Of a stretch of 64,000 bases of DNA, positions 4,282 through 45,321 are shown one piece after another; positions within the stretch are counted from its first letter, which is position 1; every line of letters starts with the position of its first letter. The notes under the pieces were generated by a model that was not told the origin of the DNA, did not search any database, and saw only the letters and a program-made list of their open reading frames with translations. The position numbers were made by a program, and so were the translations under genes. The stretch is from Martelella lutilitoris (GTDB lineage Bacteria > Pseudomonadota > Alphaproteobacteria > Rhizobiales > Rhizobiaceae): NCBI RefSeq assembly GCF_005924265.1, contig NZ_VCLB01000006.1, positions 186,001 to 250,000 on the forward strand, given 5' to 3'.

Positions 4282-4314
4282 CGCCGGCCTCCGGATCTTT
4301 CTGAAGGAATTTTG

Positions 4315-5778
4315 ATGACGATACGGTTCATCCTCAACGACAGGGACGTGACGCGCGACAGGTTCTCGCCGTCGGAAACCCTGCTGGACTATCTGCGCAT
4401 CGAACGACACCTGACCGGCTCCAAGGAAGGCTGTGCGGAGGGCGACTGCGGCGCCTGCACGGTGCTGGTGGGCAGGCTGACGCGCGGAAAGCTCGTCTAT
4501 GAGACGGTCAATGCCTGCATCCGCTTTACCGCATCGCTGAATGCCACCCATGTCGTCACCGTCGAGCATCTGGCGGCGAAAGACGGCGCGCTCCATCCCG
4601 TCCAGCAGGCCATGGTCGACATGAACGGCTCGCAATGCGGTTTCTGCACGCCGGGTTTCGTCATGTCGCTTTACGCGCTGTGGATGGAAAACGAAAAACC
4701 GTCCCGACAGGCGATCGAGAAGGCATTGCAGGGCAATCTCTGTCGCTGCACCGGCTACGAGCCGATCATCAAGGCGGCGGAGAAGGCCTCCGCCATTCGA
4801 CCGGATGCGGCCTTCGATGCGCTGGCGCGCGAGCGCGAGAGCGTGATGGCAACGCTTGCGGCCATGAAGACCGGCGAGACCATCACCATCGGCACCGAAA
4901 GCAAGCGCGGGATTATTCCCGGCTCCGCCGACGCCCTTGCCGGGGTGCTCGCCGAATATCGCGACGCGACCATCGTGGCGGGCTCGACCGATGTGGGTCT
5001 CTGGGTCACCAAGCAGATGCGCGATCTGAACCCGATGGTGTTCATCAACCATCTGGAAGAGCTGCAGACGATCACCGAGACGGAAAAGAGCTTCATCATC
5101 GGCGCAGGCGTCACCTATTCGGAAGCGTTCCCGGCACTGGCAGGCAAAATCCCGGCGCTTTCCCGGCTGATCGACCGCATCGGCGGCGAGCAGGTGCGCA
5201 ATATGGGCACGATCGGCGGCAATGTCGCCAATGGGTCGCCGATCGGCGACACCCCGCCTGCCCTGATCGCTCTGGGCGCGACGCTGACGCTGCAATCGAA
5301 GGACGGCACGCGGTCCATCGCGCTTGAGGATTATTTCCGCGATTACGGCAAGCAGGACCGGCGACCGGGTGAGTTCGTGCTGTCGCTTACCGTTCCGAAG
5401 CCGGCAGAGGGCGCGCACTACGCGGTCTACAAGGTTTCCAAACGCCGCGAAGAGGATATTTCCGCCCTTTGCGGTGCCTTTTATCTTGAGCTTGGCGGTG
5501 ACGGCACGGTCGACAAAATCCGCATCGCCTATGGCGGCATGGCCGGCATTCCCAAGCGCGCGGCCCATGTTGAGGCCGCCCTTTCCGGCAAGCCGTGGAC
5601 GGCCGAGACCGTGGAAGCGGCGCGGCCCGCCTTTGAGAGCGACTACCAGCCGATGACCGATATGCGCGCCACGGCGGAATATCGTATGCTCGCGGCCAAG
5701 AACCTGCTCTCCCGCCTGCTGCTTGAAACCGGGGGCAGCCCGCAAGAACTCTCACGCTTCGAACGCGAGGAGGCTTAA
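4315..5778 (+). CDS. xdhA: xanthine dehydrogenase, small (FeS/FAD) subunit
   Basis: The electron-transfer subunit of cytoplasmic xanthine dehydrogenase, which passes electrons from the molybdenum site to NAD. The N-terminal ferredoxin-type 2Fe-2S domain has CAEGDCGACTVL. The second 2Fe-2S domain has CGFCTPG and CRCTGY. Next comes a FAD-binding domain with AGSTDVGLWVTKQ and GGNVANGSPIGDTPPAL, then the CO dehydrogenase flavoprotein C-terminal domain. It is 487 residues. ATG 4315 is chosen over TTG 4312 because AAGGA lies 6 nt before it. It is followed with only 1 bp of spacing by xdhB. Confidence 0.95.
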   Translation: MTIRFILNDRDVTRDRFSPSETLLDYLRIERHLTGSKEGCAEGDCGACTVLVGRLTRGKLVYETVNACIRFTASLNATHVVTVEHLAAKDGALHPVQQAMVDMNGSQCGFCTPGFVMSLYALWMENEKPSRQAIEKALQGNLCRCTGYEPIIKAAEKASAIRPDAAFDALARERESVMATLAAMKTGETITIGTESKRGIIPGSADALAGVLAEYRDATIVAGSTDVGLWVTKQMRDLNPMVFINHLEELQTITETEKSFIIGAGVTYSEAFPALAGKIPALSRLIDRIGGEQVRNMGTIGGNVANGSPIGDTPPALIALGATLTLQSKDGTRSIALEDYFRDYGKQDRRPGEFVLSLTVPKPAEGAHYAVYKVSKRREEDISALCGAFYLELGGDGTVDKIRIAYGGMAGIPKRAAHVEAALSGKPWTAETVEAARPAFESDYQPMTDMRATAEYRMLAAKNLLSRLLLETGGSPQELSRFEREEA

Positions 5779-5779
5779 G

Positions 5780-8125
5780 GTGGACAAGCAGACCAATGAC
5801 GCGCTTTCCCTGAAGACCGAGATTTCGGGCGGCATGCACAAGCCTCGTGTTCACGATTCCGCCCACAAGCATGTGGCCGGCACCGCTGAATATATCGACG
5901 ACATTCCCGAACCCGCAGGCCTTCTGCATGTCGGCCTCGGCCTTTCCGAGCGGCCGCATGCGCGCATTGCCGCGATGGACCTGTCGGCGGTGGCCGAAGC
6001 CCCCGGCGTCGTCGCCGTGCTGTCGGCGAAGGATGTGCCCGGCACCAATGACATTTCCTCGGGCGGCAATCACGACGAGCCGCTCTTTGCCAATGACGAG
6101 GTCGAGTATCACGGACAGATCATGTTCGCGGTGATCGCCGAGACCCGGCATCAGGCCCGCGCGGCGGCGCGGCTTGCGAAGATCACCTATGAGGACCTGC
6201 CCTTCTGGACCAATGTGCGCGACGCGATTGCCAATGACGCGCCCAATGTCATCACCCCGATGACGCTTCAGCGCGGCGATGCGAAGGCCGCGCTCGACAA
6301 GGCGCCCCGCAGGATCACCGGCGAGATGGAGATCGGCGGGCAGGAGCATTTCTATCTCGAAAGCCAGATCGCGCTCGCCATACCCGGCGAGGATGACGAG
6401 GTGGCCGTCTGGTCGTCCACACAGCATCCAAGCGAGATCCAGCATATCGTCGGCCATGTGCTCGATATTCCGTCCAACGCCGTCACCGTCTATCAGCGAC
6501 GCATGGGCGGCGGCTTCGGCGGCAAGGAGACCCAGGGCAACGGCTTTGCCGCGATCGCGGCCCTTGCGGCCAAGAAGCTCAACCGCGCGATCAAGGTCCG
6601 CCCCGACCGCGACGAGGACATGGTGATCACCGGCAAGCGCCACGATTTCGTCGCCTATTACGATATCGGCTTTGACGATGACGGCGTGATCGAGGGCGTG
6701 GACACGACCTTTGCCGGGCGTTGCGGCTTTTCCTCCGACCTTTCAGGGCCGGTGACCGACCGCACGCTGTTTCACGCCGACAGTTCCTATTATTATCCGA
6801 ACGTGCACATGGTCTCCCGACCCTTGAAGACGCATACCTGCTCGAACACCGCCTATCGCGGTTTCGGCGGGCCGCAGGGCATGCTGGCGGGCGAGCGCTT
6901 CATCGAGGAAATCGCCTATGCGCTGCAGAAAGACCCGCTCGATATCCGCAAAGCGAATTTCTACGGCCCCAACGGCTCCGGCCGGGATGTGACGCCCTAT
7001 CACCAGACGGTGGAGGACAACATCATCCTGCGCGTGGTCGAGGAACTGGAGGCAAGCGCCGACTACCGCACCCGCCGCCAGGCGATCATCGATTTCAACG
7101 AGACGAGCCCGGTGATCAAGAAGGGCATTGCGCTGACGCCGGTGAAATTCGGCATCTCCTTCACCATGACCGCCTTCAACCAGGCCGGCGCGCTCGTCCA
7201 TGTCTATCAGGACGGCTCGGTTCAGCTCAATCACGGCGGCACGGAGATGGGCCAGGGGCTTTACATCAAAGTCGCCCAGGTGGTCGCCGACGTCTTCCAG
7301 ATCGACCTCGAACGGGTGAAGATCACCGCGACGACGACCGGCAAGGTGCCGAACACGTCTGCCACCGCCGCGTCCTCGGGCTCCGACCTCAACGGCATGG
7401 CTGCCTGGAACGGCGCGATGCAGATCCGCGACCGGCTGGTCGCCTTTGCCGCCGAACACTGGAATGTCGCGCCGGAGGAAATCGAATTCCTGCCGAACCG
7501 GGTGCGTATCGGAAAGGAAGAAATTCCTTTCCCCGACCTGATCAAGGCCGCCTATTTCGCCCGTATCCAGCTTTCGGCGGCGGGCTTCTACAAGACGCCG
7601 AAGATCCATTGGGACCGCGCGGCGGGCAAGGGCCGGCCTTTTTACTATTTCGCCTATGGCGCTGCCTGCACCGAGGTCTCGATCGATACGCTCACCGGCG
7701 AATATCTGTTCGACCGCACCGACATTCTCCACGATGCCGGGCGGTCGCTGAACCCGACCATCGATATCGGCCAGATCGAGGGCGGTTTCGTGCAGGGGCT
7801 CGGCTGGCTGACGACGGAGGAATTGTGGTGGGACGACAAGGGACGCCTTCGCACCCATGCGCCGTCCACCTACAAGATCCCGCTTGCCTCCGACCGGCCG
7901 AAGATCTTCAACGTCAAGCTCACCGATTTCTCCGAAAACCGCGAACCGACCATCGGCCGTTCCAAGGCCGTCGGCGAACCGCCCTTCATGCTGGCGATTT
8001 CGGCGCTGGAGGCAATCTCCATGGCCGTTGCCAGCGTCGCCGACTACCGCGTCTGCCCCAGGCTCGACGCACCGGCAACGCCCGAACGCGTGCTGATGGC
8101 GGTGGAGCGGATGAAGAAGGCGTGA
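5780..8125 (+). CDS. xdhB: xanthine dehydrogenase, large (molybdopterin) subunit
   Basis: The catalytic subunit that hydroxylates hypoxanthine and xanthine to urate. Residues typical of true xanthine dehydrogenases are present: the Glu of RMGGGFGGKE, the Arg of TAYRGFGGPQG and the catalytic Glu of AVGEPPFML near the C-terminus. The Moco-binding GTEMGQGLYIKVAQ segment is also there. The start is set at GTG 5780, right behind the xdhA stop, with AGGAGG 6 nt upstream. The longer reading frame from 5723 overlaps xdhA and adds no conserved sequence. It is 781 residues, full length for the family. Confidence 0.95.
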   Translation: MDKQTNDALSLKTEISGGMHKPRVHDSAHKHVAGTAEYIDDIPEPAGLLHVGLGLSERPHARIAAMDLSAVAEAPGVVAVLSAKDVPGTNDISSGGNHDEPLFANDEVEYHGQIMFAVIAETRHQARAAARLAKITYEDLPFWTNVRDAIANDAPNVITPMTLQRGDAKAALDKAPRRITGEMEIGGQEHFYLESQIALAIPGEDDEVAVWSSTQHPSEIQHIVGHVLDIPSNAVTVYQRRMGGGFGGKETQGNGFAAIAALAAKKLNRAIKVRPDRDEDMVITGKRHDFVAYYDIGFDDDGVIEGVDTTFAGRCGFSSDLSGPVTDRTLFHADSSYYYPNVHMVSRPLKTHTCSNTAYRGFGGPQGMLAGERFIEEIAYALQKDPLDIRKANFYGPNGSGRDVTPYHQTVEDNIILRVVEELEASADYRTRRQAIIDFNETSPVIKKGIALTPVKFGISFTMTAFNQAGALVHVYQDGSVQLNHGGTEMGQGLYIKVAQVVADVFQIDLERVKITATTTGKVPNTSATAASSGSDLNGMAAWNGAMQIRDRLVAFAAEHWNVAPEEIEFLPNRVRIGKEEIPFPDLIKAAYFARIQLSAAGFYKTPKIHWDRAAGKGRPFYYFAYGAACTEVSIDTLTGEYLFDRTDILHDAGRSLNPTIDIGQIEGGFVQGLGWLTTEELWWDDKGRLRTHAPSTYKIPLASDRPKIFNVKLTDFSENREPTIGRSKAVGEPPFMLAISALEAISMAVASVADYRVCPRLDAPATPERVLMAVERMKKA

Positions 8126-8128
8126 GGC

Positions 8129-8965
8129 ATGAGCGAGGTCGCGACATTCCGGCGTTTTTTCGAGGATCATCCGGCCGCCGTCATTGTCACGGTGGCCGAG
8201 ATCAGGGGCTCGACGCCGCGCGAGGCAGGCGCGGTGATGGCCGTTTCAATTGACGCAACCTGCGGAACGATCGGCGGCGGCCAGCTCGAATATCTCGCGA
8301 TCGATCATGCCCGGCGTCTGCTGAAGGGTCATGACGCGCCGCTGCGGCTCGACATTCCCCTCGGCCCCGAGATCGGCCAATGCTGCGGCGGGCGTACCAT
8401 CCTCGCCTTTGAGGTCGCGGATGCCGGCACAGTCGATCGCCTGCTGAACGCGCTTGCGGAGGACGCGGCGTCAAACCCCTCGGTCTATATTTTCGGCGGC
8501 GGTCATGTCGGCATGGCGCTCGCGCAGGCGCTTGCTCCCCTGCCCTTCAACACGACTGTGATCGAAACCCGTCCGGAATTGGACGACCCGCTGCCGGGGA
8601 CCGTCGAGCTCCGCCTGTCGCCAATGCCCGAGGCCGAGGTCGCGCGCATGCCTTCAGGCAGCGCCGCCGTCATCCTCACCCATGACCATGCGCTCGATTT
8701 TCTGATCGCGACGGAAGCGCTGAAACGCGACGATCTTTCCTATTGCGGCATGATCGGTTCGAAGACCAAGCGGGCGACGTTCCTGAATTTTGCGCGGAAG
8801 GAAGGCTTAAGCGAAACAGAGCTCTCGCGGCTGACCATGCCGATCGGCGCCGGGGTTGCCGACAAGCGCCCGGCCGTGATTGCCGCCTTGGTTGCAAGTG
8901 AACTTATCCACGTCATTTCTGCCGCAAAAGCAGGCAGGCTGCCCGCAGAACGAGCAAAGAACTGA
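8129..8965 (+). CDS. xdhC: xanthine dehydrogenase accessory protein XdhC
   Basis: A cytoplasmic chaperone that binds the molybdenum cofactor, aids its sulfuration and inserts it into XdhB. The XdhC N-terminal domain shows RGSTPREAGAVM, GTIGGGQLEY and the conserved QCCGG cysteines. The C-terminal Rossmann-like domain begins VYIFGGGHVGMALAQ. It is 278 residues, starting 3 bp after xdhB ends, which completes the xdhABC set. A second, divergent XdhC-family gene lies at 22.2-23.2 kb. Confidence 0.93.
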   Translation: MSEVATFRRFFEDHPAAVIVTVAEIRGSTPREAGAVMAVSIDATCGTIGGGQLEYLAIDHARRLLKGHDAPLRLDIPLGPEIGQCCGGRTILAFEVADAGTVDRLLNALAEDAASNPSVYIFGGGHVGMALAQALAPLPFNTTVIETRPELDDPLPGTVELRLSPMPEAEVARMPSGSAAVILTHDHALDFLIATEALKRDDLSYCGMIGSKTKRATFLNFARKEGLSETELSRLTMPIGAGVADKRPAVIAALVASELIHVISAAKAGRLPAERAKN

Positions 8966-19946: not shown

Positions 19947-20242
19947 TTTCCGCCAAACCAACTTGCCGCTTGACTTTTGCCAGACCAGGCCTCATGTACT
20001 GCCCAGGCTTTCCACCTGTTCGCATGCCGCGTGAGCATGCCCGCCAAGATGAACCTCAGCGGTTCGGGCAAGGTCAGGTCAAGCGCTTGATGAAAGACCG
20101 GGCTCCCACCCGGCGCGCGGAAGGCATTTTCCACCCATAAGATCCCACTTCACGCGGGGTTCTTGAAACCGAAATCACCGGCTTTGGCCATGTGGGCCAG
20201 GCTCAGGTGGCGTTTCGGCATGCCTTGAAAGGCGTAACTGAT

Positions 20243-21616
20243 TTGACAGATTTTTCCACACTCGGCCTCTCCGCCCAGATCGTCTCCCGCATCGCCAAGG
20301 AAGGCTATGAAAAGCCGACCCCGATCCAGGAAAAGGCGATCCCGCTGGTGCTTGAGGGCCGTGATGTTATGGGCCTTGCCCAGACCGGCACCGGCAAGAC
20401 GGCCGCCTTCGGCCTGCCGCTGATCGACATGCTGCTGCAGAACGGCAGGAAACCCGATCCGAAGACGGTAAAGACGCTGATCCTCGCCCCGACGCGCGAA
20501 CTGGTGAACCAGATCGCCGAGAACCTGCGCATTTTCGCGCGCAAGACGCCGCTGAAGGTCAACATCGTCGTCGGCGGCGCGTCCATCAACCGCCAGCAGC
20601 ACCAGCTTGCCGCCGGCACCGACATCCTGGTTGCCACGCCCGGTCGCCTGCTCGATCTTCTGGATCGCCGCGCGCTCCGGCTTGACGCCGTGCGTTTCCT
20701 CGTCCTCGACGAGGCCGACCAGATGCTCGACCTCGGCTTCATCCACGACCTGAAGAAAATTGCCTCGCTGGTCCCCGACCAGCGCCAGACCATGCTGTTT
20801 TCGGCCACCATGCCGAAATCGATCGCCGACCTGTCGAGCCGCTTTCTCAACAACCCGGAACGCGTCGAGGTTTCACCGCCCGGCAAGACCGCCGACAAGG
20901 TCGATCAGGCCGTGCATTTCGTTGCCGGCAAGGCCGACAAGGTCGAGCTTCTTCGGCAGGAACTGAGCAACAATCCGGAAGGCCGCGCCATTGTTTTCCT
21001 GCGCACCAAACACGGCGCGGAAAAGCTCATGAAGCACCTCGACAGCCGCGGCTTTGCCACGGCCTCGATCCACGGCAACAAGAGCCAAGGCCAGCGCGAG
21101 CGCGCGCTGAAGGCCTTCAAGACCGGCGAGATCAACGTGCTGGTGGCAACGGACGTGGCTGCGCGCGGCATCGACGTGCCCGGCGTGACCCATGTCTACA
21201 ATTACGACCTGCCGGAAGTGGCGGACGCCTATGTCCACCGCATCGGCCGCACCGCGCGCGCCGGCAATGACGGCAAGGCGATCGCCTTCTGCACGCCCGA
21301 GGAATCGGGTCTCCTGCGTGATATCCAGCGCCTGACGGGCATCGAGATCGCGATTGCTTCCGGCGAACCGCATGCCCATGCCGACCGTCCGGCAAAGGGT
21401 CGCGGCGGCCGCGGTCGCGGCGGCAATGCCTCCGGCAAGCCGGCGCGTCGCGCCCGCCCCTCCGGCGGCAATGGCGGCCAGCGCCACGCGGGTGATGCCC
21501 GCGACGGCGGTCATCGCGACAGCGCCAACCGCCACGGCCCCGGCCGCGATGGTCAGTCGAAACCGCGTCCGCGCCGCCAGCGCAACCGCCAGAATGATCG
21601 CCGCCAGAGCGCCTGA
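20243..21616 (+). CDS. DEAD-box RNA helicase, RhlE-like
   Basis: An ATP-dependent RNA helicase for ribosome assembly or mRNA turnover. All motifs are intact: Q motif YEKPTPIQ, Walker A AQTGTGKT, PTRELVNQI, TPGRLLDLL, DEAD (VLDEADQM), SAT (FSATMP), VATDVAARGIDVPGV and HRIGRTARAG. The last 80 residues are a basic Gly/Arg-rich tail probably involved in RNA binding. TTG 20243 is preferred because its product begins with the usual TDFSTLGLS and AAAGG lies 10 nt upstream; GTG 20192 would add 17 unconserved residues. A strong terminator follows. The 296 bp between mnmD and this start hold no gene I can recognise. Confidence 0.9.
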   Translation: MTDFSTLGLSAQIVSRIAKEGYEKPTPIQEKAIPLVLEGRDVMGLAQTGTGKTAAFGLPLIDMLLQNGRKPDPKTVKTLILAPTRELVNQIAENLRIFARKTPLKVNIVVGGASINRQQHQLAAGTDILVATPGRLLDLLDRRALRLDAVRFLVLDEADQMLDLGFIHDLKKIASLVPDQRQTMLFSATMPKSIADLSSRFLNNPERVEVSPPGKTADKVDQAVHFVAGKADKVELLRQELSNNPEGRAIVFLRTKHGAEKLMKHLDSRGFATASIHGNKSQGQRERALKAFKTGEINVLVATDVAARGIDVPGVTHVYNYDLPEVADAYVHRIGRTARAGNDGKAIAFCTPEESGLLRDIQRLTGIEIAIASGEPHAHADRPAKGRGGRGRGGNASGKPARRARPSGGNGGQRHAGDARDGGHRDSANRHGPGRDGQSKPRPRRQRNRQNDRRQSA

Positions 21617-21640
21617 TCACATGGTCGGGAACTGATGCGA

Positions 21641-21675
21641 AAGCCCCGCCGGCAAGACCGGCGGGGCTTTTTATT
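21641..21675 (+). terminator. rho-independent terminator of the helicase gene
   Basis: The stem AAGCCCCGCCGG pairs with CCGGCGGGGCTT around the loop CAAGA, followed by TTTTTATT. It begins 24 bp after the helicase stop codon. Confidence 0.93.
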
Positions 21676-21743
21676 TGTTTGGCCCGTCTTTTGGGCCAGA
21701 GGCAGCGTGAACCCGCCAACCCGTTCATGAACCTCAGCGATAA

Positions 21744-21914
21744 GCGCATCCCGTCTGCCGGCAGAAGAGACGGGAGAATGCCCACCCCATTGACTTTAAA
21801 ATCCGCAGACGCTCCCTGAAGGTCGGCACGGCTGCATCCGCCCTTTGCGCAGTCCTGGCGCCGGAAGCGGCGGGGCTTCCAGTGTCGGCTTTACCTTGGC
21901 GCGGCGCTCTCTAG
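21744..21914 (+). pseudogene. possible N-terminal remnant of a PaoA-like Tat-exported FeS subunit
   Basis: An open frame without a start codon reads IDFKIRRRSLKVGTAASAL followed by a hydrophobic, alanine-rich stretch, then stops at the first bases of the RIME element. It looks like a twin-arginine signal (RRxxLK), as at the start of the PaoA/YagT 2Fe-2S subunit of periplasmic aldehyde oxidoreductase. Support is mainly positional: a PaoC-like C-terminus and a PaoD-like gene follow in order. No iron-sulfur domain remains. Confidence 0.4.
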
Positions 21915-22017
21915 AGCGACGTGCGTCCATTTGGACGCACAAAGGACGCTCTAACCTATTGAATCTACGCATCGTGCTTTCCGAAAATCGATTCCGATTT
22001 TCGGAAAGCACGATGCG
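21913..22017 (+). repeat. RIME1-like intergenic mosaic element, copy 1
   Basis: The 105-bp element has two palindromes. The first is GTGCGTCC-ATTT-GGACGCAC. The second is a long near-perfect hairpin with outer arms GCATCGTGCTTTCCG and CGGAAAGCACGATGC around an inner AAAATCG/CGATTTT. It matches the layout I recall for rhizobial RIME1 (AGAGCG start, ACAAAGGACGCT between palindromes, ATCGATTCCGAT centre). It sits exactly between two apparent remnants of a pao locus. A second copy is at 35970. Confidence 0.85.
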
Positions 22018-22211
22018 CCAAGGGGATGGTGCTCGACAGGGTGCGCGGCTTCCTCGCCAATCACGACATGGCGGAATACGAGGTCGCCGTCCATGCCGAC
22101 ATCTTGGAGCAGACGGTGAGTTTCCTGGACACCACCGATGCCGTGGCGACGCCGCCGAAGACCAATGGCGCTGGAGAACTCGGGCTTTGCGCCGAAGCGG
22201 CGGCGATCTGA
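22018..22211 (+). pseudogene. C-terminal remnant of a PaoC/YagR-type molybdopterin-binding subunit
   Basis: From ATG 22026 a 61-codon frame reads MVLDRVRGFLANHDMAEYEV and continues with AVHADI, VSFLDTTDAVATP and GAGELGLCAEAAAI before the stop. This parallels the end of xanthine-dehydrogenase-family catalytic subunits (VLD..GR..NH.LAEY.VPV.ADI...GVGEIGI.G.AAA). The frame begins directly at the RIME boundary, and the rest of the roughly 730-residue protein is missing. The conserved GVGEIG is here GAGELG, and the protein ends early. It lies 17 bp upstream of the PaoD-like gene. Confidence 0.65.
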
Positions 22212-22228
22212 AGCTTCGCGGACAGCGT

Positions 22229-23173
22229 ATGAATGACATGCTGAGCAATCACCGGAGCGCGACCACATTGGCCTCAACGCTGACATCGGTGCAGGTGTCG
22301 GAAACGGATTTTCCGCTTGACGCCGCCCTTGACCGGGAAGGCTGCTCCATCGCCGTCATAACGGCGGTGGAGGGCGCATCCGATCGCCCGCTCGGCGCGG
22401 CGATGGTCATCGGCGCTGATGGGCAAACGGCGGGGACGCTTTCCTCCGGCTGTATCGAGCGCGACGTGGTGACCCGCGCCCGCAATGCGGCACGGACCGA
22501 CCGCCCGAAGAAACTGCGCTACGGCAAGGGCTCGCCCTTCCTGGACCTTCAACTGCCCTGCGGCGACGGCCTGGAGATCACGCTGATCCCCAATCCTTCG
22601 CAAACGGTGCTGAAGCGCGCTTCCGCCGCACTTCGCGATCGCCGCAATGCCGGGATCGCGATCGGCGAGGACGGGCGGCTGACCGACATGCTGAAGGACG
22701 GCGATCTCATGATCCAGGTCGTGCCGCGCCTGCGCGTCCTTGTCTTCGGCAAGGGTCCGGAACCGAAAATCTTTGCAAGGCTTGCAAGGGCGGCCGGACA
22801 ATCCGTAGAGCTTCACTCCCCCGATGCGCAAACACGCGAAGGCATCGATTATGCCCGGCCGATGACCGCGCCCGAATGGCCGGAAGACGTCGCGCTCGAC
22901 CACCGCACGGCGGTCGTCCTGTTCTTCCTGGATCATGACTGGGAACTGCCGCTGATCTGGCACGCACTTTCAAGTCCGGCCTTTTATGTCGGTGCGCAAG
23001 GCAGCGCGGGCGCGCATGAAAAACGCATAGCGGCACTTGAAGCCATCGGCGTGCGCCGCAGCGCTATTGATCGCATGGCCCGCCCCTTCGATCCCGTAAC
23101 CCATGCAGGCGACCCGCATTCGCTGGCTTCGGGCGTGCTCGCGCAGATCCTCGATCATGCCCGCCTGACGTAA
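22229..23173 (+). CDS. XdhC/CoxI family protein, PaoD/YagQ-like molybdenum cofactor chaperone
   Basis: A predicted cytoplasmic chaperone that loads molybdenum cofactor into a xanthine-dehydrogenase-family enzyme. Two XdhC domains are visible. The N-terminal one has GASDRPLGAAMVIGADG, GTLSSGCIERDVV, KGSPFLDLQLPCGDG. The Rossmann-like C-terminal one has VLVFGKGPEPKIFARLA and YVGAQGSAGAHEKR. The SGC and LPCG cysteines match PaoD rather than the QCCGG of xdhC at 8.1 kb. It is 314 residues from ATG 22229; ATG 22238 is possible. The enzyme it should serve survives only as fragments upstream, so it is an orphan unless it serves another Mo enzyme. Confidence 0.85.
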   Translation: MNDMLSNHRSATTLASTLTSVQVSETDFPLDAALDREGCSIAVITAVEGASDRPLGAAMVIGADGQTAGTLSSGCIERDVVTRARNAARTDRPKKLRYGKGSPFLDLQLPCGDGLEITLIPNPSQTVLKRASAALRDRRNAGIAIGEDGRLTDMLKDGDLMIQVVPRLRVLVFGKGPEPKIFARLARAAGQSVELHSPDAQTREGIDYARPMTAPEWPEDVALDHRTAVVLFFLDHDWELPLIWHALSSPAFYVGAQGSAGAHEKRIAALEAIGVRRSAIDRMARPFDPVTHAGDPHSLASGVLAQILDHARLT

Positions 23174-23319
23174 GCACCGCGCCGTCATCGTCCCGGACAC
23201 CGGAACGGCTGACCGGAATCAGCGCCGCCGATGATTTCCGCACCGCGCCAATTATGTAAGACGCGAAGGCCCGAGGCGCGCCGACCTTCGTCTGCTCCGT
23301 GGCCGCTGACGGCCTTCAC

Positions 23320-24642
23320 TCAAAGCCGGCCGCAGCAATGCTTGTATTTGAGGCCGCTGCCGCAGGGACAGCGGTCGTTGCGACCGGGTTTGGCCGATGC
23401 CGCCGACTGGCCGGCCAGCCTGCCGGTGCGCCGCAATTCCATGATGTCCGATGCCGGTCGTCCCGCCCGGACGAGATCGGCCATGACCTTCATGGCGGGA
23501 CCTGCATGTTTGACGAAACGGGAGGTCGAGCGGCAGTAATAGTTCAGCCCCGGTTCCCCATCCTTCGTCCTGGCGAAGCGGTGTTTCGGACAGCCGCCAT
23601 TGCAGGCGAAACGGATATCGCAGTTCTTGCACTGGCCGGGAAGCGCATCGCGCTTGTCCAGCCCGAACTGCCGCTGCCCATCGGACCCCATCATCTCCGC
23701 AATCGGCGTTTCCAAGATGTTGCCGAGCCGGTATTCGGGATAGACATAGTGGTCGCAGGCATAGAGGTCACCATTATGCTCCAGCGCCGGCCCCTGGCCG
23801 CAGGTCTGGGCAAACCAGCACATCGTCGCCGGAGCCCCCATCCACAGGCCAAGCTGCAGGTCGAAGAACTGGACGAAGACGCGGCCGACATCCTCTCTGA
23901 TCCATTCATCGAAGACGCCGCAAAGGAAATCCCCATAGGCGCGCGGCAGCACGCTCCAGGGCGTCACGTCATAGGATACGCCGTCATCGTCGATCTGCGG
24001 CGCAGGCGCCAGCGAATGGCCGTCAGCCGTGCGCTCGACGATCGGGATGAACTGAAGATAGGTGGAGCCGATGTCCTTGAGGAAGCGATAGACTTCCTTC
24101 GGATGGGCCGCATTCTCGCGGTTGACGACGGAGAGCGTGTTGAATTCCACGCCATGCGCCTTTATCCGCTCGATCCCGGCCATCACGGCATCATGGCTCG
24201 GCCGGCCGTTGCGGTAAGTGCGGAAACGGTCGTGAAGCGCGCTCGGGCCGTCAATGCTGACGCCGACGAGAAAATCATTTTCCTTCAGGAAAGCGCACCA
24301 TGCGTCGTCAAGCAGTGTGCCGTTGGTCTGGATGGTGTTGGCGACCGTCTTGCCGCGCGGCAGATATTTTTGCTGCATTTCAACGATGCGGCGGAAATAG
24401 TCGAGGCCGAGCATGGTCGGCTCACCGCCCTGCCAGTTGAAGCGGATTTCCCGGGCGGGGAAGCCGGCCTGCGAGGCGAGGTAGTCACGGATATAAGTCT
24501 CAAGCACCGCATCGGACATAGTGAAGCGCTTGGTCTCTGGATAAAGGTTTTCCTTCTCCAGATAATAGCAATAGGTGCAGTCCAGATTGCAGCGCGGACC
24601 GATCGGCTTGCCCATGACCTGAAATGGCAAATGTTCGGTCAT
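23320..24642 (-). CDS. anaerobic sulfatase-maturase-like radical SAM/SPASM enzyme with C-terminal SEC-C motif
   Basis: A member of the AslB/ChuR/anSME group, which oxidises an active-site Cys or Ser of type I sulfatases to formylglycine without oxygen. The radical SAM cluster site is RCNLDCTYCYY (Cys18, 22, 25). NWQGGEPTMLGLDYFR and TNGTLL follow. SPASM auxiliary-cluster cysteines are seen at CWFAQTCGQG, YACDHYVYPE and CKNCDIRFACNGGCPKHRF. The last 20 residues are a zinc-binding SEC-C motif, CPCGSGLKYKHCC, set off by a linker. ATG 24642 has GGAAAG upstream. It is 440 residues. No sulfatase gene lies in the window, so the target is unknown. Confidence 0.88.
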   Translation of the reverse strand: MTEHLPFQVMGKPIGPRCNLDCTYCYYLEKENLYPETKRFTMSDAVLETYIRDYLASQAGFPAREIRFNWQGGEPTMLGLDYFRRIVEMQQKYLPRGKTVANTIQTNGTLLDDAWCAFLKENDFLVGVSIDGPSALHDRFRTYRNGRPSHDAVMAGIERIKAHGVEFNTLSVVNRENAAHPKEVYRFLKDIGSTYLQFIPIVERTADGHSLAPAPQIDDDGVSYDVTPWSVLPRAYGDFLCGVFDEWIREDVGRVFVQFFDLQLGLWMGAPATMCWFAQTCGQGPALEHNGDLYACDHYVYPEYRLGNILETPIAEMMGSDGQRQFGLDKRDALPGQCKNCDIRFACNGGCPKHRFARTKDGEPGLNYYCRSTSRFVKHAGPAMKVMADLVRAGRPASDIMELRRTGRLAGQSAASAKPGRNDRCPCGSGLKYKHCCGRL

Positions 24643-34799: not shown

Positions 34800-35971
34800 G
34801 CGACGTCGTCATTGTTTCCGCCGCGCGCACGGCCGTCGGCGCCTTCATGAAGTCCTTCGCCGCTGTGCCCGCCCATCAGCTCGGCAGCACGGCGATCGCC
34901 GCAGCGATTGAGCGCGCTGCCGTGAGCCCTGACGAAGTGGATGAAGTCATCCTCGGCCAGGTGTTGACGGCGGGCGCCGGGCAGAACCCGGCCCGCCAGG
35001 CAGCCATTTCCGCCGGCATTCCCGACAGCGCCACGGCCTTTCTGATCAATCAGGTCTGCGGGTCGGGCCTGCGCAGCGTGGCGCTCGGGATGCAGCAGAT
35101 CGCCATGGGCGATGCCCGCATCGTGGTGGCCGGCGGACAGGAATCCATGTCGCTCTCGCCCCACTGCGCGCATCTGCGCTCCGGCCACAAGATGGGCACG
35201 GCGAGCCTCGTCGACACCATGGTCGGCGACGGCCTGACCGATGCCTTCGGCGGCATGCATATGGGCATTACCGCTGAAAACATTGCCCGGCAATGCGGCA
35301 TCGACCGCGCCCGCCAGGATGAATTCGCGCTTTCCAGCCATCGCAAGGCGACCGCCGCGCGCGAGGCCGGGCGGTTTGCCGAGGAGATCGTGCCCTTTGC
35401 CGTGAAATCGCGCAGAAGCGAAACCATCGTCGATACCGACGAGCAGATCCGCCCCGATGCCAGCGCCGAGACGCTGGCCGCCCTTCGACCGGCCTTCGAC
35501 AAGGACGGCACTGTGACGGCGGGCAACGCCTCGGGCCTCAATGACGGGGCAGCCGCGCTTGTCCTGATGCATGCGGATGAAGCCGCCCGGCGAGGACTGA
35601 CGCCGCTTGCCCGGATCGCCTCCTGGGCAACCGCCGGCGTCGACCCTTCCATCATGGGCACCGGCCCGATCCCGGCCTCGCGCAAGGCGCTGGAAAAGGC
35701 CGGCTGGTCCGTCGGCGACCTCGATCTTGTCGAAGCCAACGAAGCCTTCGCCGCCCAGGCCTGCGCCGTCAATGACGGGCTCGGCTTCGACCCGGAAAAG
35801 GTCAACGTCAATGGCGGGGCGATTGCCATCGGCCACCCGATCGGCGCCTCCGGCGCGCGTATCCTCGTAACATTGCTGCACGAAATGAAGCGCCGCGATG
35901 CCCGCAAAGGCCTTGCGACGCTCTGCATCGGCGGCGGCATGGGCGTCGCGCTCTGCGTCGAGCGGGGCTAG
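34796..35971 (+). CDS. acetyl-CoA acetyltransferase (thiolase)
   Basis: Cleaves acetoacetyl-CoA to two acetyl-CoA, or condenses them for PHB synthesis. The nucleophile Cys88 lies in [10 protein letters not shown], the active-site His in [17 protein letters not shown], and the second Cys in [13 protein letters not shown]. It is 391 residues, standard for biosynthetic-type thiolases. Position behind scoAB suggests a degradative role (AtoB-like). The stop codon TAG forms the first bases of a RIME1 element. Confidence 0.93.
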
Positions 35972-36070
35972 AGCGCCGTGCGTCCTTTAGGACGCACAAA
36001 GGACGCTCTAACTTATTGAATCTACGCATCGTTCTTTTCGAAAATCGATTCCGATTTTCGAGCCGATGCG
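35970..36070 (+). repeat. RIME1-like intergenic mosaic element, copy 2
   Basis: About 101 bp in the same orientation as the copy at 21913 and largely identical to it. The first palindrome GTGCGTCC-TTTA-GGACGCAC is intact. In the second hairpin the right arm has lost several bases (TTTTCGAGCCGATGC where the first copy has a full complement), so the hairpin is imperfect. It lies between the convergent thiolase and ROK genes and overlaps the thiolase stop codon. Confidence 0.85.
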
Positions 36071-36078
36071 CTAGGCGT

Positions 36079-37248
36079 TCACGCCTGAAATCCGGGCGTC
36101 GCGCTGAACAGGCGCTTGCGGATCGGCAGGAGCGCGGCGCCCAGAACGTTCGGATCGGTCTCGATCTCGCTGATCAGCAGTTCTGGCCCCGGAAACGGCA
36201 GGTTGATCTCGTCGACCGTGCGCGGGCTTGCCGCGCGCGCCAGACGCACCCTCAGATCACGCGGCGCCTCGCCGCCAAAGACGATGGCGGCCGGATCGAG
36301 AATGCCGGTCATCGCTCTGAGCATCTGGTCAAGCGCGGGCGTCACCCGCTCGATCCACCGGTCTATTTCCGGCCAGGACGGGTCGTATCGCTGTTTCAGC
36401 GCTGTAACCGATCCGATGTCGCGCCCCTCTTCGCGCAACATGGCAATCAGCGTGCGGAGCGCCGGGCGGCGCTCCTGCTCCTCCGGCGTATAGATCGAGG
36501 AGATTTCCGCCGCATTCATATGGTGGCCGAGATAGGGCGCGCCGTTGATGACCACGCCGCCGCCAAAACCGAGATTGATTGACAGATAGGCGAAATTGTC
36601 AAAACGCCGCCCCGCGCCGACCCAGTTCTCGGCCTCCGCGCCAAGCGTTGCGTTGTTTTCCGCCATCATGGGAAACGCGAAAGCGCCGTCGAATATCTCG
36701 GCGACATCGCGATCGCGCCAGGCGGCAATCTTAGGCGGCGGCACGAAGGCAAGACCGGGTTTGCGCCGGTAGCCCTGCATCGAGATGCCGACGCCCGCGA
36801 TCCTGCGCAGGTCGAGCCCCAGCCCCGCGATGATCTCCGACACGCAATCCGCGGTCTCCTCGCGCACGCGTTCAGGATCGTTCGGATCGACATTGAGGGT
36901 CGCAAGATGGAGGATATCGCCGGTGATATTTGTAACGGCGACGCGGACCTCTTCCGTATCGATGGCAATACCAATCCCGCAGGCCCCTTGAGGCTCAAGC
37001 GCAAGCCGCGGGCTCGGCTTGCCGCGCCCGGCAATCTTCGGCGCTTCCAGCCTGAGAAAACCCTTTTCCAGAAGATCTTCGGCAAGACGGTGCACGCTTT
37101 GCTGGGACAGCGGCGTGCGTTCGGTGAGATCCGAGCGGGCAACCGAGCCGCCGCGACGAACGGCATCCAGCACCAGCGCGCCGCTGCGCCCGATGTCGAA
37201 CACCGACCCTTCTCCCAAACCGTCGCTGAAATGCTCACCGGCCGTCAT
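36079..37248 (-). CDS. ROK-family transcriptional regulator
   Basis: A repressor with an N-terminal winged helix (LVLDAVRRGGSVARSDLTER, then SQQSVHRLAEDLLEKGFL) and a sugar-kinase-like ROK domain (GIGIAIDTEEVRVAV, NLGFGGGVVI). The ROK zinc motif, normally C.CG..GC after GHM, is not seen; here the sequence runs HHMNAAEISSIYTPEEQERR. The protein is probably a sensor rather than a kinase. It is 389 residues and divergent from the PotABCD-like importer, which it probably controls. Confidence 0.87.
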   Translation of the reverse strand: MTAGEHFSDGLGEGSVFDIGRSGALVLDAVRRGGSVARSDLTERTPLSQQSVHRLAEDLLEKGFLRLEAPKIAGRGKPSPRLALEPQGACGIGIAIDTEEVRVAVTNITGDILHLATLNVDPNDPERVREETADCVSEIIAGLGLDLRRIAGVGISMQGYRRKPGLAFVPPPKIAAWRDRDVAEIFDGAFAFPMMAENNATLGAEAENWVGAGRRFDNFAYLSINLGFGGGVVINGAPYLGHHMNAAEISSIYTPEEQERRPALRTLIAMLREEGRDIGSVTALKQRYDPSWPEIDRWIERVTPALDQMLRAMTGILDPAAIVFGGEAPRDLRVRLARAASPRTVDEINLPFPGPELLISEIETDPNVLGAALLPIRKRLFSATPGFQA

Positions 37249-37374
37249 TGCCGCGCGTCACCCCCTTGCCTGCCGCCTGATGCCTTTGAGCATGTTTGTG
37301 CGCCGGAATCCAGATTTTCGCCGCCGGCGTCGCTCAGCCTGTCAAGAAAATGCAAGATCACTGTCATATTAATT

Positions 37375-37391
37375 TTACTTACTATGAGTAA
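37375..37391. promoter_or_regulatory. AT-rich inverted repeat between ROK gene and importer, candidate operator
   Basis: TTACT-TACTATG-AGTAA has 5-bp arms in an unusually AT-rich stretch, 32 bp before the importer ATPase start. ROK repressors such as Mlc and NagC bind AT-rich inverted repeats with TTATT/AATAA ends and similar spacing. Confidence 0.4.
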
Positions 37392-37422
37392 TAAACTATC
37401 ACCTCAACAGGGGGAGACTAAA

Positions 37423-38478
37423 ATGACAGGCATTTCAGCGGACCATCTGGTCATGCGTTTCGACCGTTTCACGGCCGTCAACGATATCAGCTTCGACGTC
37501 GCGCCGGGCGAGTTCGTGACGCTTCTCGGACCGTCAGGCTGCGGCAAGACCACTCTGTTGAAGATGATTTCCGGCTTCCTGAAGCCGTCGTCCGGCCGGA
37601 TTTTCCTCGGCGAGGAGGATGTCACCGACAGGCCGCCGGAAGCGCGCGATACCGCGCTCTGCTTCCAGTCCTACGCGCTGTTTCCGCATCTGAGCGTGAA
37701 GGAAAATCTCGAATTCGGCCTCAAGCAGAAGAAAATTCCGCGCAAGGACCGCAGCCTCCGCGTCGGCGAGGTGGCGGAAAAGCTCGGCCTGGAGCCGCAG
37801 CTTGAGAAACTGCCCAACCAACTTTCCGGCGGCCAGCAGCAGCGCGTCTCGCTCGGTCGCGCGCTCGTCATGCGCCCCGGCGTCATCCTGTTCGACGAAC
37901 CGCTGTCGAACCTTGATGCCAAGCTGCGCGATCAAGTGCGCATCGAGATCCGCCGCATCCAGCAGGATTTCGCTCTCACCGCCATTTACGTGACCCATGA
38001 CCAGGCCGAGGCGCTGGCGCTTTCCGACCGGATTTTCGTGATGAATGCCGGCAGGGTGGAACAGGCCGACACGCCGGAGGTGCTCTACCGCAAGCCCGCC
38101 ACCCGTTTCGTCGCCGATTTCATCGGCGGCGCCAACATCCTGCCGGCGAAACTGAAGCCGCGCGACGGCGGCAAGGACCGGCTCATCGATACGCCAGCCG
38201 GCATCTTTTCGGTCTCACGCGAGGCCGCCCTTCCCGAGGGCAAAATCTGTCTCTGCTTCCGGCCGGAAACCGCGCGGCTCCTGAGCGGCCCTGCAGATGA
38301 CGCACTTTCGGGCACGGTCGTGACCCGCGCCTTCCAGGGCCACTTCACCGATCTGATCGCCGAGACCAACGGCATCTCCTACCGCATACAGGCCCGCGAA
38401 ACGGCGCTGCGGGAGGGCGACACCGTCTATTTCACGGTAGCGCCCGAAGATGTCATCATACTCGGAGCTGACGCATGA
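37423..38478 (+). CDS. ABC transporter ATP-binding protein, PotA-like
   Basis: The ATPase of a polyamine/iron/sulfate-type importer. Walker A is GPSGCGKTTLLK, the Q loop is CFQSYALFPHLSVKENLEFG, the signature is LSGGQQQRVSLGRAL, Walker B is [15 protein letters not shown] and the switch is THDQAEALALSDRI. A C-terminal TOBE domain follows. It is 351 residues from ATG 37423, which has GGGGGAG 7 nt upstream. It heads the operon ATPase-permease-permease-binding protein and overlaps the next gene by 4 bp. Confidence 0.9.
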   Translation: MTGISADHLVMRFDRFTAVNDISFDVAPGEFVTLLGPSGCGKTTLLKMISGFLKPSSGRIFLGEEDVTDRPPEARDTALCFQSYALFPHLSVKENLEFGLKQKKIPRKDRSLRVGEVAEKLGLEPQLEKLPNQLSGGQQQRVSLGRALVMRPGVILFDEPLSNLDAKLRDQVRIEIRRIQQDFALTAIYVTHDQAEALALSDRIFVMNAGRVEQADTPEVLYRKPATRFVADFIGGANILPAKLKPRDGGKDRLIDTPAGIFSVSREAALPEGKICLCFRPETARLLSGPADDALSGTVVTRAFQGHFTDLIAETNGISYRIQARETALREGDTVYFTVAPEDVIILGADA

Positions 38479-39329
38479 CCGCCCGTCGCTGGCTTGTGGT
38501 CGCAGCCCTTCTGACGCCCGGCCTGGGACTGATCCTGGCGCTGATCGGCACGGTCATCTATATGGCGATCGCCCAGTCGCTCGGCTATTTCAGCTTCGGC
38601 GGCGAAAGCCAGTTGTCGTTCTCCTATTGGGGCGAAGTGTTCGGCCGCAGGCTGTTTTCCCGCTCGGTGCGCTATTCGCTTTATATCGGCACGGTCAGCG
38701 CCATCCTCTCGGTCGCCCTTGCCTATCCGCTGGCGATCTGGCTGAGAAAACCCTTCCCCGGCTCGATGACCATCGGCTCCATGCTGAAGGCGCCGATGCT
38801 GGTGCATGGCCTGGTCGCGGCCTTCCTGTTCCTGAACATCATTGCCTATCACGGGCCGCTGAACCAGTTGATGCAGGCGCTCGGCATATGGGATCACCCT
38901 CATCGACTTCAGAACGACCGTCACGGCATCGCCGTCCTCATCCTTCAGGTGTGGAAGAACCTGCCCTTTGCGCTGCTGCTGCTGACGGGCGCGGTGCAGG
39001 GCATTTCCGACGATGTGCTGGATGCGGCCCGCGACATGGGCGCCGGCGCATGGTCGCGCTTTCGCAAGGTGATCGCACCGCTCTCGGTCTCGGCCATGCA
39101 GGCGGCCCTTGTCATCATCTTCATCGGCGCGCTGGCCGACTTCTCCTTCCAGACGGTTGTCGGCCCCACCAACGTTCAGTCGCTCGCCCAGCTGATGGTG
39201 TTCTTCAAGGGCCGCGGCGACTGGCATTCGGCCGCCGTCGTCGGCGTGTCGCTGATGGTGCTGGCCCTGGTGGGCTCCACGCTTCTGGCGATTGCGGCAA
39301 GGTTCATCATGAAGGGACGGCTGAAATGA
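38475..39329 (+). CDS. ABC transporter permease, PotB-like
   Basis: An inner-membrane subunit with about six helices. The EAA loop is DVLDAARDMGAGAWSRFRKVIAPL. RLQNDRHGIAVLILQVWKNLPF precedes it, as in spermidine/putrescine-type permeases. It is 284 residues. It overlaps the ATPase gene (ATGA) and the following permease gene (ATGA). Confidence 0.9.
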   Translation: MTARRWLVVAALLTPGLGLILALIGTVIYMAIAQSLGYFSFGGESQLSFSYWGEVFGRRLFSRSVRYSLYIGTVSAILSVALAYPLAIWLRKPFPGSMTIGSMLKAPMLVHGLVAAFLFLNIIAYHGPLNQLMQALGIWDHPHRLQNDRHGIAVLILQVWKNLPFALLLLTGAVQGISDDVLDAARDMGAGAWSRFRKVIAPLSVSAMQAALVIIFIGALADFSFQTVVGPTNVQSLAQLMVFFKGRGDWHSAAVVGVSLMVLALVGSTLLAIAARFIMKGRLK

Positions 39330-40153
39330 CCCGCAGGAAGCTTGATTTCGCCCTTCTGATCATGCTCTCGGTGGTCTTCGTCGTCTGGCTGATCATCCCC
39401 TTTGCCATTGCGGTTCTGTGGTCGCTGACCGACCCGGCAGAGCCCTGGACGGCCTCGACGCTTCTGCCCCCCGTCATGTCGTTCGCCCGCTGGTCCGACA
39501 TGTGGCAGCATTCGGGCCTCAAGCAGGCGCTCGTGACGTCCTATACGCTCGCCCCGACGGCAGCAGTCACCTGCCTGCTTCTGTCGCTGCCGACGGCGCT
39601 GGCGCTCGGGCGCTTTGCCTTTCCGGGCCGAGAGGTCGCCAAGATCCTCTGCCTTCTGCCGCTCGTCGTGTCGCCCTTCGTCACCTCGATCTTCTTTACC
39701 GCGCTTCTGTTCACGCTGGGACTGCAGGGCTTCCGTTTCGGCGCGATCGTCTTTGCCCATTCGGTGCTGTTCCTGCCCTATGCGATCCGTATCATGACGG
39801 TGAGCTTCGAGCAGGTGCGCCAGGATCATATCGATGCCGCGCGCGATCTCGGGGCAAGCCCGTGGGCGCGGTTTACCGCCGCCTACCTGCCGGCGCTGCG
39901 GCCCGGCATCTTCGCCACGCTCCTCATCGTCTTCATCCAGTCGATCGAGGAGTTCGCCATCGCCTATATCGTCGGTTCGCCGGAAATCGTCACGGTCCCG
40001 ACCCTTCTTTACGCAGCGCTCGGCCAGGACTTCGTCCGTCCCAATGCCGCCGTGCTGTCACTCATCCTCGTCGTCCCCAATGTTTTGCTGATGCTGATCC
40101 TCGAGAAGCTTCTGAAGTCGGCCAATCCGACGCTTGCATCAGGCAAGGGATAA
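39326..40153 (+). CDS. ABC transporter permease, PotC-like
   Basis: The second membrane subunit, 275 residues, with about six helices. The EAA loop is HIDAARDLGASPWARFTAAYLPAL. ATG 39326 overlaps the preceding stop. A longer in-frame reading back to 38450 is only the high-GC shadow of the PotB-like gene. It is followed by the binding-protein gene. Confidence 0.9.
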   Translation: MTRRKLDFALLIMLSVVFVVWLIIPFAIAVLWSLTDPAEPWTASTLLPPVMSFARWSDMWQHSGLKQALVTSYTLAPTAAVTCLLLSLPTALALGRFAFPGREVAKILCLLPLVVSPFVTSIFFTALLFTLGLQGFRFGAIVFAHSVLFLPYAIRIMTVSFEQVRQDHIDAARDLGASPWARFTAAYLPALRPGIFATLLIVFIQSIEEFAIAYIVGSPEIVTVPTLLYAALGQDFVRPNAAVLSLILVVPNVLLMLILEKLLKSANPTLASGKG

Positions 40154-40198
40154 CGCGGTCGCATGCCCAGGAAGAAACCCAACGGAGAGACTGTCAAA

Positions 40199-41305
40199 AT
40201 GCTGAAAACGCTTATTTTTTCGACCACCGCACTGGCGTTTGGCGCAAGCGCCGCATTCGCTGCCGACATCACCGCGATGAGCTGGGACGATATCGTCGCC
40301 AAGGCCAAGCATGAAGGCGAGGTCAACTGGTATGTCTGGTATTTCCAGGACGATTTCCGCAAGGTCGTCGCCCCCTTTGAAGAGAAATACGGGATCAAGG
40401 TGAACATCCCGGCCGGCGGCACCGCATCCGGCAATGCTGACAAGCTTCTCGCCGCAAGCGGCAGCGACACCGGCGACATCGACGTCTTCGCCTGGGGCTA
40501 TGGCGACATGTCGACGCTCGATTTCGCCAAGCTCTTCACCCCGCTTTCCATGCTGCCCGAAGACGCCGGCCGCATCAACACGGTCAACAATATCGACGGC
40601 GGCGACTATGTTTACGCCTATTGGGGCAACCAGACCGGCATCGCCTACGACCCGGCCAAGGTCGACGAGAACGCCCTGCCGCAGACGCCGGAAGACTTCT
40701 CGGCCTTCTGGGAAGACAATCCCGGCAAGTTCGGCTTCAACTATGAGAACGGCGGCTCCGGCCCGTCCTTCTATTCCAACATCCTGCGCGTCCTGTCCGG
40801 CCTCGACTTCAACGACGGCGATGATTCCGCCGCCCGCATCGAGGCACTTCAGCCCGGCTTCACCTTCTTCAACGACTATGCCGGCGACTATGTGATCACC
40901 ACGTCCAACGCCGACAGCATCATCCGCATGTCCGATGGCGAGCTGTTCATGGCCCCGGTCTGGGAAGACCATCTGGCAAGCCTGCAGAAGAGCGGCGAAG
41001 CGCGCAAGGACCTCAAGCTCTACATCCCGGAAATGGGCATGAACGGCGGCGGCAACGGCGTTGCCATTCCGCAGAACGCCCCGCATCCGGCCGCAGCCGC
41101 CCTTCTGATCGACTGGCTGACCTCGCCGGAAACCCAGACCACGTTCAACGCCACCTTCGGCACGGCGCCGATGAATGCCAATGCCGATGACAGCAACGCG
41201 CTGATCTCCAACGACCAGCGTCAGTACTCGGTCCCGAGCGCCGCCCAACCGTTCAAGAAGGCGATGGAAGAAGCCTTCGTCGACAACGTCATCCTCGAGC
41301 GCTGA
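40199..41305 (+). CDS. ABC transporter substrate-binding protein, family 1 (PotD/YnjB-like)
   Basis: A periplasmic receptor with a signal peptide (MLKTLIFSTTALAFGASAAF, cleavage after AFA). The mature start DITAMSWDDIVAKAKHEGEV and NWYVWYFQDDFRKVVAPFEE resemble YnjB-like and polyamine-type receptors. It is 368 residues from ATG 40199, preceded by GGAGAG. It is the last gene of the importer operon, just before a strong terminator. The ligand is unknown; polyamine, thiamine-like compounds and iron chelates all fit the family. Confidence 0.85.
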   Translation: MLKTLIFSTTALAFGASAAFAADITAMSWDDIVAKAKHEGEVNWYVWYFQDDFRKVVAPFEEKYGIKVNIPAGGTASGNADKLLAASGSDTGDIDVFAWGYGDMSTLDFAKLFTPLSMLPEDAGRINTVNNIDGGDYVYAYWGNQTGIAYDPAKVDENALPQTPEDFSAFWEDNPGKFGFNYENGGSGPSFYSNILRVLSGLDFNDGDDSAARIEALQPGFTFFNDYAGDYVITTSNADSIIRMSDGELFMAPVWEDHLASLQKSGEARKDLKLYIPEMGMNGGGNGVAIPQNAPHPAAAALLIDWLTSPETQTTFNATFGTAPMNANADDSNALISNDQRQYSVPSAAQPFKKAMEEAFVDNVILER

Positions 41306-41322
41306 TTTCAGCGAAACACTCA

Positions 41323-41355
41323 GCCCGGCAGTCGAACCGATTGCCGGGCCTTTCT
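41323..41355 (+). terminator. rho-independent terminator after the PotABCD-like operon
   Basis: The stem GCCCGGCA / TGCCGGGC encloses an 11-nt loop and is followed by CTTTCT. It starts 17 bp after the binding-protein stop. Confidence 0.8.
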
Positions 41356-41392
41356 ACCTCCCCCAAAGAAAAACAAGAAAAGGCATGCTCTC

Positions 41393-42163: not shown

Positions 42164-42176
42164 GGCAGAGAGGCCT

Positions 42177-42203
42177 GGTTCCTCCGGTGAAGCCGGAGGA
42201 TGA
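42177..42203. repeat. single CTTGA-type palindromic element between convergent genes
   Basis: The hairpin TCCTCCGG-TGAAG-CCGGAGGA (42180-42200) is followed by TGAC and preceded by CCTGG. This is the same layout as the elements at 12.9 and 59.9 kb, in inverted orientation and with the loop CTTCA on the other strand. It lies between the DUF1868 gene and the converging permease gene. Confidence 0.65.
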
Positions 42204-42255
42204 CGCCGAGGATCATGCCGGGCCATCGGGAAAACGCGCCCCGGCACCCGGCCTC

Positions 42256-43970: not shown

Positions 43971-43987
43971 CTTCGTCCGAAGGAATA

Positions 43988-44014
43988 CCGCCGCAGCCGG
44001 ACTGGCCGCGGCGG
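43988..44014 (-). other. intercistronic GC hairpin between binding protein and permease genes
   Basis: CCGCCGC / GCGGCGG is a perfect 7-bp stem around a 13-nt loop, with no T-tract. It lies 17 bp after the binding-protein stop in the Ugp-like operon, the same position as the hairpin in the peptide importer operon. Confidence 0.6.
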
Positions 44015-44030
44015 ATCAGATTTCAGCGTC

Positions 44031-45293: not shown

Positions 45294-45321
45294 TTCGTTC
45301 AGTCCCCTGAATCGGAAATTC

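Follow-up and report, generated by a model that had tools for sequence, protein, structure and literature searches.

Between rhlE and anSME, the stretch of Martelella lutilitoris DNA analysed here (64,000 nucleotides, positions 186,001 to 250,000 of contig NZ_VCLB01000006.1, referred to as the window) carries the remnant of a periplasmic aldehyde oxidoreductase operon, paoABCD: PaoA, PaoC and PaoD pieces follow one another in operon order, and a syntenic relative retains the intact genes. Very probably, an ancestral cluster of paoABCD together with MocA-like and DUF2255 genes lost its function in the window lineage and was eroded by independent deletions, with a RIME-type repeat inserted later and paoD left drifting. 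A real decayed operon is seen here midway through ordinary genome erosion, beside an intact relative. The data do not support a role for the repeat in the deletion; specialists may want to follow up its TA footprint.

The locus was read against that of Martelella radicis DSM 28101, a congener of the window strain (contig NZ_JACIDZ010000003.1; genome G010, locus L038), within a genus set of 13 Martelella genomes, the window genome itself (G000) comprising 18 contigs and 4.45 Mb. In the window, the interval between the two flanking genes holds, from left to right, the N-terminal remnant of paoA, a RIME-type repeat, what is left of the paoC C-terminus and paoD with its frame open (Table 1). The labels rhlE and anSME, like that of an aquaporin-like frame discussed below, are presumptive. 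An Rfam search of 21000-24000 gave 13 matches, all under the gathering score of their own family.

Table 1. Coordinates of the features of the pao locus and of the xdh genes in the window.
Feature	Position	Strand	Remarks
xdhAB xanthine dehydrogenase	4312-8125
xdhC	8129-8965		directly downstream of xdhAB; TIGR02964 284.9 bits, cut-off 161.6
rhlE	20192-21616		left neighbour of the pao remnant
Scar of 91-bp deletion upstream of/at paoA start	21757-21763		direct repeats GCCGGCA, 7 bp; both copies in L038
paoA N-terminal remnant, Tat-type signal	21764-21897	+	out of frame with old start
Junction of 3326-bp paoA-paoB-paoC deletion	21897-21898		left, paoA homology; right, paoC homology
Short paoC piece left of repeat	21898-21911	+	G-A-A-L-S in PaoC frame
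RIME-type repeat	21912-22020	+	element 21914-22018 (105 bp)
Left border of repeat	21912-21913		TA
Right border of repeat	22019-22020		CA, read as decayed TA
paoC C-terminal remnant	22021-22211	+	old stop codon retained
Scar of 87-bp in-frame paoC deletion	22201-22207		direct repeats CGGCGAT, 7 bp
Orphan paoD-type XdhC-family gene	22229-23173	+	314 aa, open frame
MocA-like nucleotidyltransferase gene	23174-23193	+	first bases only, then 640 bp missing
DUF2255 gene remnant	23195-23309	+	266 bp missing on its right
anSME	23320-24642	-	right neighbour of the pao remnant

At the same chromosomal site, M. radicis carries about 6 kb with paoA, paoB, paoC, paoD, a MobA/MocA-like nucleotidyltransferase gene and a DUF2255 gene, and a search of this pao locus for a RIME found none. 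This syntenic comparison bears out the decayed paoABC and orphan paoD proposed in the initial annotation. The M. radicis PaoA lies above the cut-off of NF008514 (342.6 bits, cut-off 322), its PaoC finds its best match in NF041671 (1172.4 bits, where the curated NCBIfam cut-off is 1180), and the DUF2255 gene matches PF10012. The MocA-like protein matches PF12804, and its best NCBIfam match, TIGR03310 MocA, reaches 67.7 bits, below the cut-off of 186. This arrangement is reminiscent of E. coli paoABCD in the order A-B-C-D, in the Tat-type signal on PaoA and in the XdhC-family PaoD standing last of the four, but differs from it by the MocA-like gene after paoD, a feature shared with a further Martelella genome, G012. 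The E. coli operon is unlike the window, where paoB is gone and paoA and paoC are fragments.

The pieces left in the window align with these intact genes. The paoA remnant is 84.5% identical (blastn) to M. radicis paoA over 116 bp (21757-21871), and its Tat-type peptide IRRRSLKVGTAASAL matches EIRRRTLMVGTAASAL of the M. radicis PaoA; about 46 bp are lost near 21872, one base is lost just past the old paoA start codon, and 21886-21897 agrees with paoA at 10 of 12 positions, up to the base before the 3.33-kb junction. Right of the repeat, the paoC remnant runs gap-free along M. radicis paoC (85% over 190 bp) and matches NCBIfam NF041671 PaoC with an E value of 2.1e-21 (profile positions 645-705 of 735), while a Pfam search of this C-terminal piece gave no match; 17 bp separate the paoC stop from the paoD start. 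The two remnants, this spacing and a complete RIME-type repeat between the paoA and paoC pieces all stand as first described.

The single deletion of about 4 kb that had been proposed does not stand. Relative to M. radicis, which the deletion sizes presuppose to be the ancestral form, at least four deletions lie at or in pao (3326, 91, 87 and ~46 bp) and two more after paoD. The missing 3326 bp reach from paoA to paoC and include paoB; 91 bp are missing at the paoA start between two copies of GCCGGCA, and 87 bp (29 codons) close to where paoC ends, with a copy of CGGCGAT on either side. Past paoD, ~640 bp are gone, and with them almost the whole MocA-like gene, and ~266 bp are missing from the DUF2255 gene, whose remnant is 77% identical to M. 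radicis over 115 bp. Several separate deletions argue for general erosion of the cluster, not for a single event, and the two scars with 7-bp direct repeats probably arose by slippage. Under this scheme, the common ancestor with M. radicis would have had paoABCD, the MocA-like gene and the DUF2255 gene between rhlE and anSME; loss of operon function in the window lineage would then have been followed by a series of separate deletions, part of them probably through slippage at the 7-bp repeats. The largest deletion (3.33 kb) would have joined the paoA start to the last seventh of paoC.

Across the genus set, an uninterrupted PaoC at 60% identity or more is found in two of the 13 genomes, M. radicis and G012, and the search of G009 returned a 31% match with one stop. 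At E 0.001, the window genome offers only two matches to PaoC, the remnant (72%) and, at 26% identity, a xanthine dehydrogenase subunit; no second PaoC was found at that threshold, and the enzyme is no longer encoded there. In G012, the pao cluster and its MocA-like gene lie at another genomic place, with protein identities to the M. radicis cluster that range from 59% (MocA-like) up to 84% (PaoB). The 8.5 kb examined around it yielded no match to DUF2255. In the close relatives G011 and G002, rhlE and anSME are almost adjacent, with no pao sequence in between. A two-gene tree pairs the window genome with M. radicis (support 88/91), and the mean identities over stretches are near-equal, 91.3 for G000-G010 and 91.4 for G000-G011. 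The pao cluster may either have been gained by the ancestor of the window strain and M. radicis or have been lost in G011 and G002, where the site is clean. Among the five genomes searched for it, the MocA-like gene is found in M. radicis and G012, beside paoD, and was not found in G000, G011 or G002. It directly follows paoD both in M. radicis (where the locus lies on the reverse strand of L038) and in G012; barring a second, weak MocA-like match in G012, it occurs among these five genomes only together with pao.

The repeat between the two pieces, a putative RIME1 (Rhizobium-specific intergenic mosaic element), had been placed exactly on the junction of the deletion. This placement fails by 14 bp, since the bases to its left (21898-21911) already belong to PaoC. 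When the right flank and a TA duplication are used to set the register, they agree with G012 paoC at 13 of 14 positions, and just 1 of 16,974 positions on both strands of that locus is as good. Against M. radicis, agreement is 10 of 14 (51 of 19,974 positions as good) and 12 of 16 (5 of 19,970). With the element and one duplicate taken out, the frame reads GAALSKGMVLDRVRG, where the M. radicis counterpart is GAALSEDMALDRARG. Because PaoC lies on both sides in the same register and frame, the repeat is not on the deletion junction; the alignment places the junction at 21897/21898 and the insertion point of the repeat 14 bp to its right. The repeat is inserted in the ordinary way, at a TA dinucleotide of paoC. 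Of the initial proposal that the RIME had mediated or invaded the deletion, the second half is upheld by the TA footprint and by PaoC on both sides, and the first is not. A repeat beside a deletion scar is not necessarily its cause, and here 14 bp of flank were decisive. A variant with the RIME on the exact junction, a deletion endpoint flush with its right end and a CTAG target was also considered and rejected, as TA is the constant part and paoC lies left of the element.

The repeat looks younger than the decay that surrounds it. Compared with 44 other copies, it has no private base in 107, whereas the paoC remnant shows 20 window-lineage changes in the 143 sites at which M. radicis and G012 are the same (Fisher p 1.5e-5). 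Nine of the 20 fall at second codon positions, against five own changes of M. radicis paoC at these sites, all at third positions. The simplest reading is that the repeat was probably inserted late into an already dead gene, with the provisos that gene conversion among repeat copies could mask private bases and so mimic youth and that part of the 20 paoC changes may predate the loss of function. The reverse order, in which the RIME would have inserted first and inactivated the operon, with the deletions following, draws on the entry of RIMEs into genes of the window genome, for example into the aquaporin-like frame, but is unlikely given the same contrast between an unchanged repeat and a much changed paoC remnant. 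In the preferred order, the ~105-bp element would have entered a TA of the paoC remnant after much decay, 14 bp right of the junction.

The initial annotation also described paoD as intact, which holds for its frame, free of stops and indels, but not for its sequence, which shows signs of decay. The protein scores above cut-off for both PF02625 XdhC_CoxI (62.4 bits) and PF13478 XdhC_C (51.6 bits) and is 91% identical to M. radicis PaoD. Both it and the M. radicis protein remain below the cut-off of NF045664, the aldehyde-oxidoreductase XdhC family (40.5 and 54.6 bits, respectively, vs 350), so the name PaoD is given by operon position. Two residues, H234 and G288, are replaced by L and D, respectively; the H and the G are kept in both Martelella relatives and in 26 of 26 homologues (26 used of 30 loci, the best of the matches in 219 of 247 genomes).

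Rates of change point the same way by one test. With G012 as outgroup, the sole usable Martelella for paoD among the genomes compared, 52 paoD changes fall on the window branch and 15 on the M. radicis branch, compared with 64 and 51 for rhlE and anSME together (Fisher p 0.004 for the contrast). Amino-acid changes in paoD number 13 and 4 (p 0.049), a weak excess that falls short of significance when set against the neighbours (p 0.27). When G011 is the outgroup, window and M. radicis branches carry 50 and 23 changes in rhlE and 38 and 40 in anSME; with G002, 43 and 30 in rhlE and 36 and 42 in anSME. As rhlE is also faster in the window lineage with G011, the paoD contrast is weakened and the excess may be partly general. 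The dN/dS values to M. radicis are 0.164 for paoD, 0.087 for rhlE and 0.083 for anSME, and together with the open frame the paoD value may reflect recent or residual function. Judged from these sequence comparisons, paoD is drifting and most likely on the way to being lost, its function presumably gone.

An excerpt of PMC3909100 describes E. coli PaoD as the chaperone of PaoABC, with the MCD cofactor coming from MocA. The window paoD, left without its enzyme and its likely cofactor-making partner, would be drifting behind a still open frame. Retention of PaoD for the maturation of a different molybdoenzyme, for instance the window's own xanthine dehydrogenase, would account for that open frame in a genome with xdhAB. 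It is nevertheless very unlikely: xdhAB has its own XdhC directly downstream, residues conserved in all 26 homologues are missing from PaoD, one test has paoD evolving more rapidly than the genes next to it, and no MocA-like gene was found in the window genome at E 0.001.

At least 40 further places in the window genome match the repeat at 81-98% identity (40 candidates scored), and it holds a 23-bp perfect inverted repeat. Among 72,556 plasmid records, 325 contain it; 252 of these carry the name Rhizobium and 63 the name Sinorhizobium. The footprint was read from 53 different copies scoring 80 bits or more, from loci of several genera, of which 51 were parsed and two were not. TA stands on the left in 48 of the 51, on the right in 41 and on both sides in 39; the contig-wide frequency of TA is 1.5%. 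CA on the right is seen in five of the 51, the pao copy among them, and these five are not independent, as a site that three genomes have in common holds copies with CA or a like change.

A survey of 17 copies scoring 30 bits or more, in collinear 340-400 kb stretches of four genomes, gave a precise empty site in a relative for four (G000 179586 and 221969; G002 175146 and 220654), where TA occurs once if the site is empty and on both sides if it is filled. For five copies the site is also filled in a relative, for four there is no counterpart in the stretches compared, and four have disturbed flanks (the pao copy, G000 172558, G002 299460 and G011 322368). That a RIME placed exactly at the junction of one deletion mediated the loss, for example through recombination of two RIME copies flanking paoA-paoC or through cutting at one end of the element, is very unlikely, for all that the 3.33-kb junction is no more than 14 bp away and that the intact relative has no RIME there: paoC runs on across the repeat, no partner RIME is seen in the M. 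radicis locus, the four precise empty sites show that arrival without loss of target is possible, and the pao copy looks younger than the decay.

The window repeat, then, behaves as a TA-targeting MITE like RUP. It resembles RIME1 in its length of ~105-108 bp, its palindromic parts and its many copies, and differs in that the window copy sits inside a gene remnant. RUP, the pneumococcus repeat unit, has 107 bp and IS630-Spn1 as its proposed mover, according to an excerpt of PMC2229807. The Martelella repeat is like RUP in size, in the TA target and in being present in copies by the dozen, but unlike RUP, no transposase with matching ends was found for it. The search was for an autonomous element of IS630/Tc1 or IS5 type: of 46 PF13358 matches, 30 were examined and none matches the repeat profile, the end patterns being matched at these loci only with 3-4 mismatches; all 13 PF13340 loci were examined and gave no convincing pair of ends, one of them (L275) having a repeat copy alongside; and neither PF13358 nor PF13340 has a match in the window genome at E 0.001. 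In the literature consulted, to which the original description does not belong, no treatment of RIME transposition was found, and no priority is claimed. Excerpts of PMC3733652 and PMC2229807 do not mention RIME, and an excerpt of PMC2573895 has RIMEs as annotated repeats, with dozens of such sequences "of unknown function". RIME1-type repeats in Rhizobiaceae are likely to be MITEs that target TA and that a putative transposase moves in trans, recently active in Martelella and landing in and between genes, the pao and aquaporin copies being candidate recent jumps. Their TA footprint offers a way to test whether RIME-type repeats are mobile.

Further copies were observed close to the locus and elsewhere in the genome. 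One RIME copy, 6.4 kb left of the window (G000:C15:179584-179687; L116:19584-19687), splits the aquaporin-like frame, which meets a stop right past VAMA at the copy, whereas the M. radicis frame is open; the split frame has a second lesion, a frameshift near its start. A second RIME within the window, at 35968-36071, has a precise empty TA site as its counterpart in G011 and G002. The 10.4 kb past it (~36072-46426) have no collinear block longer than 800 bp in M. radicis, which has ~80 bp there, and a partial M. radicis match lies ~5 kb further on. At G000:C4:43443-43645, two RIMEs stand head to tail, with a TA between them that is apparently common to both.
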